Shown here one piece after another: positions 36,246 through 40,645 of a stretch of 41,650 bases of DNA (the stretch's first letter is position 1; every line of letters starts with the position of its first letter). Source of the DNA: a virus. The stretch lies in IMG/VR virus record IMGVR_UViG_3300023174_000316, positions 1 through 41,650 of that record, one strand, 5' to 3'. The notes beneath the pieces were generated by a model that worked only from the letters and a program-made list of their open reading frames with translations, was not told the origin of the DNA and did no database searches. The position numbers and the translations under genes are program-made.

Positions 36246-36719
36246 TTATATATCTATAATATTTTTATCTTCTTTTTTAATTTCTTTTGCTTGTTGAAGC
36301 ATTATTTTAAAAAGTTCTTCTCTGCTCATTGTTAAACGAGTAACATCTTCTTGTGCTTGAGCTTCTTTTTTGCTGTCTATATCCATTTGTTTTATTTTAA
36401 CAGCTGTGTCATTTTTATTGTTAGCAATGCTTCTTTTTTGCAACACTTCTAAATTTCCTTGAAATGATTTAGCTAATTCAGCCAATGCAATTACTTGCTT
36501 TTCATCTCCTGTTTGTTTTACAAGATCGGATTGTTCCTTTAACACATCAGCAAGATCAATAACTGCTTTTGATCCATATTTTAAAATAAAAGAATCCACT
36601 TCTTCTGGAGATAATTCTGGATATTCTTTTTCAACATTTTTTAAACTGCGATTTTGATTCTTCAGTTGATTTATAATATCATCTGCGACTTCATCCAAAT
36701 CATTATCATTATATTCCAT
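36246..36719 (-). CDS. Candidate small terminase subunit (gp16-like)
   Basis: 157 residues from the ATG at 36719; the frame extends to 36761 but the extra codons encode the late motif. The protein is acidic at the N-terminus (MEYNDNDLDEVADDIINQLK), then predicted helices, including a coiled stretch QVIALAELAKSFQGNLEVLQ, then RSIANNKNDTAVKIKQMDID, and a Lys-rich end. Size and helix pattern resemble T4 gp16 (164 residues), which stimulates gp17, but no specific motif proves it. It is far from the large terminase, unlike in T4. Confidence 0.45.
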   Translation of the reverse strand: MEYNDNDLDEVADDIINQLKNQNRSLKNVEKEYPELSPEEVDSFILKYGSKAVIDLADVLKEQSDLVKQTGDEKQVIALAELAKSFQGNLEVLQKRSIANNKNDTAVKIKQMDIDSKKEAQAQEDVTRLTMSREELFKIMLQQAKEIKKEDKNIIDI

Positions 36720-36723
36720 AAAA

Positions 36724-36731
36724 TTATTTAA
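36724..36731 (-). promoter_or_regulatory. Late promoter motif that sets the start at 36719
   Basis: TTAAATAA on the minus strand; TAAATA ends 5 nt before the ATG at 36719. It is the rightmost late motif found in the window. Confidence 0.7.
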
Positions 36732-36781
36732 TTTAATTACCACAGGATTGACAAAATGCAATACTATAGTAAATTATCATC

Positions 36782-37792
36782 ATGATTGATTTAAACAGAA
36801 AATCTGTTCTTATTACAGGAGGTTGCGGTTTTATTGGAAGCAATTTCATAGAATATATCAATAATAATTATAAAAACGTTGATATATACAATATTGATAA
36901 ATGGGGTGTTGGTCACAGAAAATTAACAACTTCTATACTTTCAGAATCTAATAATTATCGAGAAGTTCATATGGATATATGCGATCTAGATTGTGATAAA
37001 AGTTTTTTTTATAATGGAATTTTAAATAAAATCAAATTCGATTATGTCTTTCATTTTGCAGCAGAATCTCATGTAGATAGATCAATAAATGATCCCACTA
37101 GTTTTATTACCAGTAATGTCGTTGGAACTTCTAAGTTATTAGAATACATGAAAAATAATAATCCCGATGCGAGAATTATTTGTATATCAACAGATGAAGT
37201 TTATGGACAATTACCAGCAAATGAAGGTGTGTTTTTAGAAAGTACTCCATTGAATCCTAGAAGTCCATATTCAGCATCCAAAGCAGCATCCGACTTGCTT
37301 GCATTGGCATTCCACCAAACATTTGGTATGGATATTCTTGTTACAAGATGCTGTAATAACTTTGGTCCTCATCAACATGATGAAAAATTTATTCCAACAA
37401 TTCTTAAAAGTTTACTAAACAACCAAAAAATACCAGTGTATGGTAAAGGAGACAATGTAAGAGAGTGGATTTTTGTTGAAGATCACAATAAATGTATTCT
37501 TGAAATTGCCGAAAGAGGAGAATCTGGTCAAGTATACAACGTGTCTTCTCCACAAGCCTTTGAATACTCGAATTTAGATCTCATAAAAAAAATAATTGAC
37601 ATATTGTATCAAGGTGATAAAAAGATTGAAGATGTTATTGAATTTGTCGAAGATCGTAAAGGACATGATTTTAGATACGCAATTGCATCAGAAAAAATTA
37701 CGTATCAATCAGAGTTTAAAAACTTCGATGAAGCTTTGAAAGAAACTGTTAATTTTTACAAGAACAAATTTACTAATAAAAAACTAGATTAA
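36782..37792 (+). CDS. rmlB: dTDP-glucose 4,6-dehydratase (RmlB)
   Basis: 336 residues, full length for the family. VLITGGCGFIGSNFIEYI is the NAD-binding GxxGxxG loop. FHFAAESHVDRSI, CISTDEVYGQLP (catalytic Asp-Glu region), RSPYSASKAASDLL (Tyr-x-x-x-Lys) and RCCNNFGPHQHDEKFIPT are RmlB hallmarks. The enzyme turns dTDP-glucose into dTDP-4-keto-6-deoxyglucose, the step after RmlA. RmlA and RmlD homologues lie 24 kb away on the other strand. No late motif precedes it, so its timing may differ from theirs. Confidence 0.95.
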   Translation: MIDLNRKSVLITGGCGFIGSNFIEYINNNYKNVDIYNIDKWGVGHRKLTTSILSESNNYREVHMDICDLDCDKSFFYNGILNKIKFDYVFHFAAESHVDRSINDPTSFITSNVVGTSKLLEYMKNNNPDARIICISTDEVYGQLPANEGVFLESTPLNPRSPYSASKAASDLLALAFHQTFGMDILVTRCCNNFGPHQHDEKFIPTILKSLLNNQKIPVYGKGDNVREWIFVEDHNKCILEIAERGESGQVYNVSSPQAFEYSNLDLIKKIIDILYQGDKKIEDVIEFVEDRKGHDFRYAIASEKITYQSEFKNFDEALKETVNFYKNKFTNKKLD

Positions 37793-37822: not shown

Positions 37823-38026
37823 ATGAAAAAGTTAAATCAAACACAACAAGAACTGGTTGAAAATGCTCGCGCACAAATTAAACATTTACAAGAAACAGAA
37901 TCAATTATTTATGAAAGTCTTGTTAATGAAATTGGATTAGATAATAATTGGTTGTATGATTATGTTTTTAACTGCCAGATAGAAGATAACTATTCGGAAA
38001 TGGTAAAAAGTGAAATTTTTGAATAA
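37823..38026 (+). CDS. Small helical protein, unknown
   Basis: 67 residues: QQELVENARAQIKHLQETES and a second acidic helix. Not recognised. It begins the right-hand accessory operon; AAAATACAC lies about 15 bases upstream and could be part of an early promoter. The next gene begins right after its stop. Confidence 0.6.
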   Translation: MKKLNQTQQELVENARAQIKHLQETESIIYESLVNEIGLDNNWLYDYVFNCQIEDNYSEMVKSEIFE

Positions 38027-38353
38027 ATGGCAACAACCAATTCAATCACGGGAGATGAGATTAAATCAAAAACTCTCTCAAAAGAGGGTAGAGAAAATTA
38101 TGACTTTATTTTTAGAAAGAAAAAACAAATGAAATTAGCAAGTGCAAGTTGGTGTGGACCGTGTTCCGTATTAAAATCAAAAATCGCAAAAGAAGGTTTG
38201 AATGTTGAAATTGAAGATATGGATAATAATCCAGATTTTTTTAAAAAATATAATATTCGATCCGTTCCTCAATTGGTTATTTTTAATCAAGAGTCTTTTG
38301 AGCTTATATCGGGATCTGAAAATATTTTAAAATATATTAAAGAAAACCAATGA
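38027..38353 (+). CDS. Thioredoxin-like protein
   Basis: 108 residues. ASWCGPCSVLKSKI contains the WCGPC active site, and RSVPQLVIFN holds the cis-Pro loop. The first 35 residues replace the usual first beta-alpha unit and contain a Lys-rich strand. It should act as a dithiol reductant in the cytoplasm, for example for a ribonucleotide reductase, but no such gene lies in this window. It overlaps the next gene by ATGA. Confidence 0.88.
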   Translation: MATTNSITGDEIKSKTLSKEGRENYDFIFRKKKQMKLASASWCGPCSVLKSKIAKEGLNVEIEDMDNNPDFFKKYNIRSVPQLVIFNQESFELISGSENILKYIKENQ

Positions 38354-38616
38354 GCGAATACGACGATTTACTTATAATGGATGGATTCGATGATTGTATC
38401 GTTGGGATCGTTGAACGGATTGGACAAGATTCATATGTCATTTATGACAAAGAATTAGTTCTTGAAAAACTTCAAAACAATGGTAGTATGTCTTATGAAG
38501 AAGCTCTTGAGTATTATGAATTCAATCAACTTGGGGCTTATGTTGGAGAAAGAACTCCAGGATTTTTAATTAGAGATTATGATGATATTTTTCAAAACAT
38601 TAAAGCAGAAGCATGA
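38350..38616 (+). CDS. Conserved small phage protein, unknown
   Basis: 88 residues: LLIMDGFDDCIVGIVERIGQ, VIYDKELVLEKL, then MSYEEALEYYEFNQLGAYVG and ERTPGFL. Proteins with this DGF.dc..G, EEA.EY.eFN..GAYVGE pattern occur in many large phages with no known function. ATGA overlaps on both ends place it in a coupled operon. Confidence 0.75.
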   Translation: MSEYDDLLIMDGFDDCIVGIVERIGQDSYVIYDKELVLEKLQNNGSMSYEEALEYYEFNQLGAYVGERTPGFLIRDYDDIFQNIKAEA

Positions 38617-39038
38617 ACCTATTTCTTGATGATCAACGGAACCCAGAGCATGCATATCTACATCTAGATACTGGTGTACCTAAAGTATTGCTCGTCGAAC
38701 ATTCTAGTATTCATCAAAATGACTGGGTAATTGCTAGAACATACGATGAATTCGTAAAGTATGTTACGGTTTTTGGATTACCTGATGTCGTCTCGTTTGA
38801 TCATGATCTCGATGAAGAGCATACCAAGCATTACTTCATGGTTACACGAGATACTGGAGTTATCGAATACGGTAATTTTAAAGAAAAGACAGGAAAGCAC
38901 TGTGCTGAATATCTTGTACAAGAATGGAAGAAACAAGGCAAACCAAAACAGATCAAGACATTCGTACATTCAGCGAATCGTTGGGGTCAAATTGAGATTA
39001 AGAAAGTATTAAATGAACTTCAACATAATAAAATATGA
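38613..39038 (+). CDS. Cyclic-phosphate-processing receiver-domain (cREC) protein
   Basis: 141 residues. NLFLDDQRNPE opens the domain, VSFDHDLDEEHT gives the central Asp pair, KEKTGKHCAEYLVQEW a helix, and TFVHSANRWGQIEIKKVL the last motif, as in the cREC family. cREC proteins are receiver-like domains predicted from comparative genomics to act on cyclic phosphates in RNA-end or ADP-ribose metabolism; activity here is unproven. ATGA overlaps link it to both neighbours. Confidence 0.75.
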   Translation: MNLFLDDQRNPEHAYLHLDTGVPKVLLVEHSSIHQNDWVIARTYDEFVKYVTVFGLPDVVSFDHDLDEEHTKHYFMVTRDTGVIEYGNFKEKTGKHCAEYLVQEWKKQGKPKQIKTFVHSANRWGQIEIKKVLNELQHNKI

Positions 39039-39199
39039 AAAATAAAAATGATATGCTTTTCGATTTTTACAAACTTCAAACCTTTGTGCAGCTAGTTGCT
39101 GTTGGTAAACGACCCGATGGTACATACAACTACTGCCGCGAAGCTTTAGAAAAAAAAGCAAAAGCACTTCTCAAAGAATTAGATAAAAAAACTATATGA
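39035..39199 (+). CDS. Small basic protein, unknown (54 residues)
   Basis: A short ORF fills the gap between two genes and overlaps both by exactly 4 bases (ATGA at each end), which supports its reality. The product reads MKNKNDMLFDFYKLQTFVQL, then VAVGKRPDGTYNYCREALEK, then a Lys-rich helix. No family recognised. Confidence 0.65.
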   Translation: MKNKNDMLFDFYKLQTFVQLVAVGKRPDGTYNYCREALEKKAKALLKELDKKTI

Positions 39200-39714
39200 T
39201 TAAAAGAATATTCCAGGACTTAGATGAATGTATACTGCATACAATGGTCAACTATAAACCAGAAGAGGGCGAAAACGGTATAGAGTTTATACTTAGCGAA
39301 GATATGAATAATTATTATGCGTTCATTCGTCCATGCGCAAAAGAACTTTTTGAATATTACAATAGTGTTGTAGGCAAAGAAAATGTGTATATTCTAACAA
39401 CCGCTACACGCGACTATGCCGAAGAGTTGAATCGACTTGGTGAGTTTGGATTAGACAATGATCACATTTATTCCCGCGAAGATATTCAACAATATACAAA
39501 TTCATTTAACTATGATAAAACTATTGTGTGTCCTATCGCAGACAAAGATAATGTACTCATTGATAATTTACCACATCTTTATAATAATGACAAGATGAAC
39601 ATGATGGGAATTGTTACAGCAAACTATTATCAAACAGCAGAATATTATGGCAATAATCTAAATGACGCAAATTTCTTTGAAAAAATAAAACAGTTTATTA
39701 AAAATAGATTATGA
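39196..39714 (+). CDS. HAD-superfamily phosphatase
   Basis: 172 residues. FQDLDECILHT near the N-terminus is HAD motif I (nucleophile Asp and the second Asp), RPCAKELFEYYN follows, NVYILTTATRDYAEELNR has motif II Thr, and NVLIDNLPHLYNN gives the metal-binding Asp of motif IV. The pattern is nearest to small phage 5'-nucleotidase or FCP1-like phosphatases. Substrate unknown. Coupled by ATGA overlaps. Confidence 0.78.
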   Translation: MIKRIFQDLDECILHTMVNYKPEEGENGIEFILSEDMNNYYAFIRPCAKELFEYYNSVVGKENVYILTTATRDYAEELNRLGEFGLDNDHIYSREDIQQYTNSFNYDKTIVCPIADKDNVLIDNLPHLYNNDKMNMMGIVTANYYQTAEYYGNNLNDANFFEKIKQFIKNRL

Positions 39715-39989
39715 AATATAAAATTACAATTAGCGAAGGCTGTACCGCTTTCTATACTGAAATCAATGAAAAGATTGTTGGTGGTGAATATGAACCAACC
39801 TGTTTTACAGACAAAGAGATTGATGAGTTTGTAGACTATCTTTGTGAGAAGTTTAAAGAGGAATTAAAACAAAGCACAGTCCAACTTAACGATTTAATTC
39901 AATGCTTTCAACCAGATAGTTGGGAAACTGAAGATGATAGTTGTGATCAATGCGGAGATACCGTGCATAAAAAATATTGGGAACTATGA
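39711..39989 (+). CDS. Small protein with CxxC end, unknown
   Basis: 92 residues. The N-terminal strand is KYKITISEGCTAFYTEINEK. Then comes an acidic helix (FVDYLCEKFKEEL), and the C-terminus has SCDQCGDTVHKKYW, a possible half zinc ribbon. Not recognised. It overlaps both neighbours by ATGA. Confidence 0.65.
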   Translation: MKYKITISEGCTAFYTEINEKIVGGEYEPTCFTDKEIDEFVDYLCEKFKEELKQSTVQLNDLIQCFQPDSWETEDDSCDQCGDTVHKKYWEL

Positions 39990-40645
39990 TTGAAGTTTTA
40001 GTTATAAGTGATATCCATCTCGGAACATCCGTAAGTCAAAAAAACAAAGTTTTACAAGTATTAAATTTAGAATTTAATACGCTTGTAATCAATGGAGATT
40101 TGTTTGATAACTACTCATTCAGACGTTATGATAAAAGTGACTGGAAAATTTTAGGAAAGATACGCAAACTTTCAAAAAGTCATAACGTAATTCTTGTCAA
40201 AGGAAATCATGATAGTAATGCAGAATTTTTAAGTGCAATTACAGGCATGGAACTTTTGGAAAATTACTCCACCACAATAAACAATAAAAAATTCTTTTTT
40301 GAACATGGTGATAAGTACGATCATTGGACAACACATCGACCAGTTATCACTTGGTTTTTTACTGGACTCTATTATTGGATTCAAAAATTCGATAAATCTT
40401 ATAAAACTTCAAGATATTTAAAACGATTAAGTAAATCATGGATCAAAGCCAAAGATATTATAAGCAAAAAATTTGTTGAAAAACATGGTAAATGCCATCA
40501 TGTTCTGCTTGCAGGTCATACACATCATGCTGAAGTAAAACAATTTGAAAATTGTGTTTACATAAACTCTGGATCTTTTTGTGAACATCAATGTTCATAT
40601 GTTGAAATTTATTCCAATGGAGATTTCAAATTAAAATATGTTTAA
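39986..40645 (+). CDS. Calcineurin-like metallophosphoesterase
   Basis: 219 residues from the ATG at 39986, which overlaps the previous stop (ATGA); an in-frame TTG at 39977 is less likely. Motifs run in order: VISDIHLG (D-x-H), NGDLFDNY (GDxxD), KGNHDSNA (GNHD), EHGDKYDH, and LAGHTHHAE (GHxH). Together they build a two-metal phosphoesterase site like that of LpxH and related enzymes. The protein may act on a nucleotide or lipid phosphate; substrate unknown. Confidence 0.88.
   Translation: MIEVLVISDIHLGTSVSQKNKVLQVLNLEFNTLVINGDLFDNYSFRRYDKSDWKILGKIRKLSKSHNVILVKGNHDSNAEFLSAITGMELLENYSTTINNKKFFFEHGDKYDHWTTHRPVITWFFTGLYYWIQKFDKSYKTSRYLKRLSKSWIKAKDIISKKFVEKHGKCHHVLLAGHTHHAEVKQFENCVYINSGSFCEHQCSYVEIYSNGDFKLKYV

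Follow-up and report, generated by a model that had tools for sequence, protein, structure and literature searches.

As many as 18% of jumbo phages have the cyclic-phosphate-processing receiver-like domain cREC (PMC9503650), and passages of PMC7824862 and PMC9503650 predict that it resolves cyclic phosphates, either at the ends of RNA or in ADP-ribose cyclic phosphate (ADPr>P), an activity that was experimentally uncharacterised at the time of PMC9503650. The same passages link cREC, in large and medium phages, to RNA ligases, HAD, a calcineurin-like phosphoesterase and a nucleotide kinase, with RlaP as a ligase companion, and give PNK-HAD and Swiss-army-knife HAD as the usual phosphatases; 'FCP1' appears nowhere in the main text of PMC7824862. 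In this study, we describe a chain of seven genes at positions 38027-40645 of the viral contig IMGVR_UViG_3300023174_000316 (linear class, positions 1-41,650; these 41,650 bases are called the window), in which a cREC gene is accompanied by a HAD-superfamily phosphatase of the FCP/SCP type. The chain is best read as a ligase-less variant of the phage cREC RNA-repair neighbourhood, a kind that is already known, with a new HAD partner. It resembles the neighbourhoods in the published passages in its PF20274 cREC, and in that the published gene types are found near cREC-HAD in distant relatives. It differs from them in the type of its HAD, and in that sirtuin, KptA, Nudix and a recognised ligase were not found in the records of the window's branch that were searched.

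All seven genes are on the plus strand. A thioredoxin-like gene with the WCGPC motif and a 33-residue N-terminal tag (38027-38353; Pfam Thioredoxin 32.2 bits, cut-off 23.5, and alignments) is followed by o88 (38350-38616; an unknown family, PHROG 13182), cREC (38613-39038; PF20274 64.1 bits, cut-off 27), o54 (39035-39199; a 54-residue protein), the HAD phosphatase (39196-39714; motif DLDECILHT, NIF 32.7 bits, cut-off 21.8), o92 (39711-39989; a small protein with CxxC near its end, conserved beside the HAD) and a calcineurin-like metallophosphoesterase (39986-40645; Metallophos_2 50.8 bits, cut-off 27). The last gene starts with the ATG at 39986, and a TTG-started open reading frame (ORF) in the same frame begins at 39977. 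The list of ORFs and the sequence both give ATGA overlaps at 38350-38353, 38613-38616, 39035-39038, 39196-39199, 39711-39714 and 39986-39989. A preliminary description of this DNA had counted eight genes joined by six such overlaps; the six overlaps stand, but they join seven genes. The gene before them, o67 (37823-38026, plus strand; a conserved small ORF of 67 residues in the same place in related contigs), abuts the chain, its TAA at 38026 directly meeting the ATG at 38027 with no overlap. The redox, cREC, HAD and phosphoesterase identities were correctly assigned, all four being above their own Pfam cut-offs, and the 54-residue ORF proved to be a real gene with homologues of 54.5-75.7% identity in related contigs (14 distinct sequences, counting that of the window). 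Tail sheath, baseplate and clamp-loader genes are present in the window, and the best tblastn matches of its terminase, about 30% identical, are to phages that we take to be of T4 type. The window is therefore a fragment of a T4-like phage, and the chain a phage cassette.

Relatives were gathered by scans with cREC, HAD or the metallophosphoesterase. Fifty HAD loci were fetched with a profile of 17 HADs, some from loci first found via cREC or the metallophosphoesterase, which leaves a residual bias; the 25 loci with at least 57% HAD identity are called near kin and the 25 below 50% distant kin. Genes were called with a simple script, from which 'directly' before or beside is judged, and the loci outnumber the lineages that they represent, many being near-duplicates (L208/L209, L214/L215, L220/L221 and others). 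The cREC-HAD neighbourhood is old. It is kept down to 36% HAD identity, where the two genes are adjacent in some loci, and a cREC match covering at least 96% of the profile was found in 36 of the 50 HAD loci, always on the same strand, with a broken gene in a 37th (L181). At most 150 nucleotides separate the two ORFs in 14 of the 25 near-kin loci and in 8 of the 25 distant ones. Among the distant kin, 21 of 25 loci have cREC, again always on the same strand, and the four without it include the ligase-bearing L222 and L212.

RNA-repair or tRNA genes accompany the HAD on the same strand in 17 of the 25 distant loci, or 12 if Pth2 is not counted, and RNA ligases of three kinds do so in seven. RtcB is encoded directly before the gene c4, described below, in L214/L215 (225.7 bits for the L051 copy, from the same contig as L214), and an Rnl2-like ligase directly before c4 and HAD in L222, making three distant loci with a ligase in front of c4. 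T4-RnlA-like ligases occur in L208/L209, L212 and L216 (PHROG 562, E 7e-39 for L216 and 1e-35 for L208), while RlaP directly precedes tag-cREC-HAD in L207. The fullest locus, L208, has the tag, cREC, HAD, o92, a 2H-like and a kinase-like protein, the ligase, thioredoxin, a metallophosphoesterase and Pth2; in this lineage cREC, HAD, a separate thioredoxin, another metallophosphoesterase, the kinase-like gene and the T4-type ligase lie in about 6 kb of one strand. L216, of 4.3 kb, carries a fused tag-cREC, HAD, a tentative 2H-like protein, a kinase-like protein, the ligase and a metallophosphoesterase. The 2H-like label is tentative: it denotes a 145-148-residue protein with two HxT motifs, which we assume to be 2H-like, and which has no Pfam match (L216 copy) and only an unknown family among PHROGs (L216 and L208 copies). 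The kinase-like protein scores below the Pfam cut-off and matches a PHROG 'ATPase' better than polynucleotide kinase. The identity of the T4-type ligase rests on PHROG 562, with no Pfam ligase match and no PDB sequence match, and our own T4-RnlA-type profile was used because PF09511 matched nowhere, controls included. RNA repair in phage T4 itself consists of PNK plus RnlA/gp63. L208 and L216 resemble it in having an RnlA-family ligase and a kinase-like gene beside cREC-HAD, whereas neither ligase nor kinase was found in the window or its near kin.

RNA-repair genes are enriched near the HAD. In a Pfam search of 50 whole records, with HAD distances entered by hand, 6 of 11 RNA_ligase/RtcB/RlaP matches are within 5 kb of it against 1.6 expected (P 0.001). 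One of the six is at 4.9 kb; within 3.5 kb there are 5 of 11 against 1.1 (P 0.002), and dropping one near-duplicate record leaves 5 of 10 (P 0.004). With our own profiles on 13 whole records, 16 of 30 repair genes are within 6 kb of the HAD against 4.7 for a random point (P 0.0008), the 30 being really 29 since the RtcB of G036 was counted twice. Two features of this second test count against an RNA-repair reading: five of the seven profiles were built from HAD- or cREC-flanking loci, which favours the result, and one RNA_ligase match about 25 kb from the HAD in G036 was missed. Since neither test was framed before the first examples were known, and the profiles of the second came mostly from flanking genes, the enrichment is support, not proof.

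The HAD protein has 172 residues, of which D8, D10, T68, D123 and N124 are invariant in 17 sequences and presumably represent FCP/SCP-like motifs I, II and IV; these motifs accompany the NIF score above cut-off. Its structural model (mean predicted local distance difference test score, pLDDT, 89) gives Fcp1, Scp1-3 or CTDNEP1 in all of the best 24 Foldseek rows, and the structural ranking runs from SCP3 (Z 15.0, root-mean-square deviation 3.0 over 147 residues) to Tim50 (11.1) and 3r09 (10.8), the next other HAD. The likeness to the FCP/SCP family (NIF, PF03031: SCP1-3, Fcp1, CTDNEP1) extends to a DLDET-type motif I in a deep relative, DLDETLLHT; the differences are that this is a phage protein, of 172 residues, with 14-20% identity to solved chains in the best 15 rows. 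No relative was detected among 50,697 phage records at E 0.01, and no PHROG matched. A PDB sequence search returned nothing with the HAD alone, and CTD phosphatases only at E 0.25-0.74 with its alignment. The PNKP and Swiss-army-knife HAD families are not among its Pfam matches at E 0.1, an absence that is not proof. Judged from sequence and model the protein is classed as FCP/SCP-like, and neither RNA-repair HAD type named in print was demonstrated for it. The FCP/SCP type is known mainly for phosphoprotein phosphatases, so the earlier argument that cREC, HAD and metallophosphoesterase all act on phosphate esters carries little weight.

In cREC, D6, D7, D63, D65, H119, S120 and N122 are invariant in a 16-sequence alignment. 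The model (mean pLDDT 83) has a receiver-like fold with conserved aspartates, which goes together with the PF20274 score; its structural alignments are mostly to receiver domains, the best Z of 7.5 over 93 residues being middling alone. Foldseek gave no row under 0.001, the best (0.042) being a receiver domain, and a PDB sequence search with the alignment gave one chance-level row.

The gene order o67, tag/thioredoxin, cREC or o88, HAD, o92, metallophosphoesterase, o54, o51, o193 is largely kept in the near kin and is broken by frequent inserts and losses. In 15 distinct related stretches reaching from o67 or the tag to o193, the HAD is present in all 15, an unbroken cREC in 11, the metallophosphoesterase (at least 50% identity) in 11, and all three in eight. 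The preliminary description had suggested looking for the same neighbours elsewhere. The exact seven-gene set occurs in none of 36 other related contigs, some of them incomplete, while cREC and HAD stay together to the depth given above. Freely varying neighbours, which it had named as evidence against a shared pathway, are neither plainly seen nor plainly absent, cREC and the metallophosphoesterase coming and going. A ligase or end-healing kinase nearby, the mark of the phage cREC RNA-repair island, was found only in distant relatives and, at the thresholds used, not in the window's branch; the window chain is therefore not filed as a full member of the island.

We propose, at somewhat less than even chance, that the old cREC-HAD pair of an RNA (probably tRNA) end-repair island forms the core of the chain, which would be an accessory operon in a T4-like phage. 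A host metal-independent RNase would cut RNA to leave a 2',3'-cyclic phosphate end, and cREC would open the ring, or would open ADP-ribose 1'',2''-cyclic phosphate. The phosphate would then be removed by the FCP/SCP-type HAD, possibly helped by the metallophosphoesterase, to give a ligatable end. Because ligase and kinase-like genes are missing or unrecognised in the window's branch, joining there would fall to a ligase of the host or to one that escaped recognition; alternatively, the enzymes may only clear damaged ends or signals. These chemical steps, and the roles of the thioredoxin and the three unknown genes, we infer; likewise, the back-to-back ATGA overlaps would fit translational coupling of the seven genes. 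Given the persistence of cREC-HAD and the RNA-repair flanks in distant kin, an RNA-end role is the best guess for this pair. For the metallophosphoesterase and the thioredoxin, membership of an RNA-end pathway is possible: L208 has both kinds of gene, though not necessarily as orthologues. The single RNA-end or nucleotide-processing pathway of the preliminary description thus finds partial support for cREC-HAD from the distant context and weak support for thioredoxin and metallophosphoesterase; as one pathway of all seven genes it is conjectural.

A larger evolutionary picture is more speculative. T4-like phages may have recruited an FCP/SCP-type phosphatase, whose fold is familiar chiefly from phosphoprotein phosphatases of eukaryotes, as an RNA-end phosphatase with cREC, and the window's branch may have lost an exchangeable ligase (RtcB, Rnl2-like or T4-RnlA-like), leaving a healing-only coupled chain; we consider this rather unlikely as a whole. 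To the extent of our searches, novelty lies in the FCP/SCP partner, the exchangeable ligase nearby, the fusion of tag and cREC, and the branch that lacks a ligase. A literature search found no paper joining phage cREC with a HAD phosphatase, and for NLI interacting factor with bacteriophage only papers whose listings do not concern phage genes. The cREC-HAD neighbourhood, the full set of L208 and the ligase-free branch offer a clean comparison between RNA mending and signal clearing by cREC, and a third HAD type would be added to phage RNA repair.

Several observations weigh against an RNA-end role. RNA ligase (PF09414), RtcB, kinase, 2H, RlaP and Pth2 are unmatched at threshold in the window; the profiles for RNA ligases, kinase, 2H-like, RlaP, RtcB and Pth2 found nothing in any of the 25 near-kin loci or in the records G001 (173.8 kb), G002 (138.7 kb) and G003 (85.3 kb), a weak short match of the T4-type ligase profile in G001 (45 residues, E 0.0019) and an AAA_33 match below cut-off in the near-kin G011 (16.7 bits) being left uncounted. 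G003 has a broken cREC gene together with intact HAD and metallophosphoesterase genes, and G002, in which HAD and metallophosphoesterase are present, has no cREC match anywhere in its 138.7 kb. Close homologues of the metallophosphoesterase are confined to nearer kin. The tag is linked to the HAD at least as tightly as cREC is (25/25 and 21/25 loci), and general synteny therefore explains part of the cREC-HAD linkage. Most of the 46 remote cREC loci L127-L172 lack HAD and the RNA genes sought. Among six named phages whose cREC surroundings were viewed, those of DLP_6, Atu_ph07 and Tunturi_5 have no ligase or tRNA-linked gene over cut-off or annotated; a PolyA_pol match near cREC in Stenotrophomonas phage DLP_6 is below cut-off, and Tunturi_5 has a cytidyltransferase and a cREC gene that is itself labelled 'nudix hydrolase'. 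Cellulophaga phage phi17:2 has a macro-domain gene near cREC. The surroundings in the other two speak for an RNA-end role: a Flavobacterium phage has two metallophosphoesterases and tRNA genes close to cREC, and Aeromonas phage AS-zj a gene annotated as tRNA nucleotidyltransferase. Also in favour, cREC of the jumbo records G009/G010 is flanked by an Rnl2-like ligase on one side and a kinase on the other, and phages of both kin groups carry tRNA genes (in the window's branch, 19 in G001, 8 in G002, 15 in G003).

An alternative is that there is no common pathway at all, and that the chain is a hypervariable, gene-trading stretch of tightly packed accessory genes whose overlaps reflect compaction. 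The many unrelated inserts, the absence of the exact set elsewhere, the loss or breakage of cREC beside intact neighbours, the lack of a recognised ligase, the entry of c18-like genes between HAD and o92 with four-base overlaps kept on both sides, and the frequency of such overlaps (15-21% of junctions in the 130 further loci counted below) all suit that explanation. It accounts poorly for a cREC-HAD neighbourhood kept to 36% HAD identity and for the enrichment of RNA-repair genes near the HAD in distant kin, and we hold it improbable, though a serious contender. A missing ligase would also be no difficulty if cREC, HAD and metallophosphoesterase degraded cyclic-phosphate or ADP-ribose signals of host defence, in line with the published prediction of cREC action on ADPr>P as well as on RNA ends. 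The macro-domain gene of phi17:2 fits this idea, as does a DprA/SLOG-like protein of 106 residues, below Pfam cut-offs, two genes before cREC in L201. KptA and sirtuin, though, were found in none of 14 records and Nudix only in the jumbo records G009/G010, so that 12 of the 14 have none of the three (one or two of these being distant kin, in which ADP-ribose enzymes were hardly sought), and in the window and near kin KptA, sirtuin, 2H (PF13563) and Nudix were rejected as partners. The absence of KptA and sirtuin also weighs against the RNA-end reading. With RNA ligase, kinase-like protein, RlaP and Pth2 as the sampled distant context, we judge signal degradation quite unlikely. Least likely of all, in our estimate, is that the HAD is a phosphoprotein phosphatase altering a host or phage protein, its neighbours being incidental. 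The Foldseek rows and the SCP3 score speak for such an enzyme, and Pnkp1 (4xru) comes only at rank 32 with E 0.15, which also counts against an RNA-end phosphatase; a common fold, however, need not mean a common substrate, and this HAD goes together with cREC and, among distant kin, with RNA-repair genes.

The run of six overlaps is rare, though not unique to the window. Nine of the 36 same-strand junctions of the window, by the simple gene caller, are four-base overlaps. The two longest relatives have 29 of 246 and 23 of 192 with a longest run of two each, and 27 deduplicated related contigs 134 of 837 with a longest run of three. In 130 further loci (50 HAD and 80 cREC loci, many of them near-duplicates) the counts are 137/665 near HAD, 114/580 distant HAD and 247/1608 in the cREC set. 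The longest run among the 50 HAD loci is four (L201/L202), and one of the 80 cREC loci, the remote L172 without HAD, also has six in a run; a run above three as a trait of the window only was thus ruled out. The simulated chance of six in a run among 36 junctions is 0.0001 at 11.9%, 0.0005 at 16% and 0.006 at 25%, and 0.001 when the window's own nine overlaps are shuffled, values that are optimistic as the run was chosen after the fact. Some junctions are old: counting duplicate contigs, HAD/o92 and o92/metallophosphoesterase overlap by four bases in 8/8 contigs each where they are neighbours and thioredoxin or tag/cREC in 12/15, against 0/13 for cREC/HAD. The full run exists in the window because the chain includes both o88 and o54, and the stretch from HAD through o92 to the metallophosphoesterase is free of inserts. 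Between HAD and o92, gene c18 may be there or not, the four-base overlaps being exact in both cases (3300044640_002187, 3300027225_000026, 3300020539_000007), as if genes were gained and lost at ATGA boundaries. In near kin o54 follows o92 or the metallophosphoesterase; in L201/L202 it lies between cREC and HAD, which rules out this position as peculiar to the window, and in L201, a remote contig, the homologue of o54 overlaps cREC by four bases. In several near kin o88 occupies the place of cREC.

The tag preceding the thioredoxin (38027-38125) has the conserved pattern ITGDxIxSK...GRxNYDxIFxKK. Tag and thioredoxin are separate genes in many relatives, and at the same locus the tag is joined to differing bodies: that of the window is a thioredoxin, those of kin are unrelated C-termini, and that of L216 is cREC, this last fusion being seen in that one contig only. 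It was found at L208, L216, L220 and others, with weak matches in five other phage records. The metallophosphoesterase is nearest to the YfcE/LpxH type, which it resembles in its Pfam match and in 5k8k (E 0.009) and from which it differs in scoring 52.2 bits on YfcE TIGR00040, below the NCBIfam cut-off of 56.25. Its best PHROG, 547 (E 2e-5), is the family of the L208 metallophosphoesterase (E 1e-20).

Some minor observations were made around these genes. The usual gene before o67/tag in most kin is c4, encoding a protein of 206-240 residues (e.g. L004:6748-7467); it is missing from the window, where a dTDP-glucose-4,6-dehydratase-like gene (36782-37792) lies upstream of the chain, and as an RNA enzyme it was dismissed for want of a Pfam or PHROG match. 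A T4-RnlA-like ligase is adjacent to cREC in L113:3307-4855, and about 3 kb from it on the opposite strand in L151-L154, L156, L157 and L161-L163, with no HAD match in any of these loci. ARAGORN calls a tmRNA at L062:9001-9327 (G001) with an odd 27-residue tag, which may be false. Shine-Dalgarno sites precede none of 34 non-overlapping window genes of at least 60 residues, one of eight with a four-base overlap and two of three with another overlap (background 5%). Because such sites are scarce in the genes of these phages, their loss was discarded as evidence of coupling. A sigma-70 promoter scan was uninformative (29 found, 29.9 expected). The motif TAAATAAT, presumably T4-late-promoter-like, is as frequent as chance (14 copies, 13.97 expected), but 9 of the 14 are at most 8 nucleotides from a gene start (0.1 expected), lying 3-4 nucleotides before nine starts, none of them of a chain gene. 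The positions concerned are 8522, 9714, 19235, 19581, 24447, 27671, 27767 and 30464 and the minus-strand gene 36246-36761, for which an ATG near 36719 is suggested as the start rather than the listed TTG.

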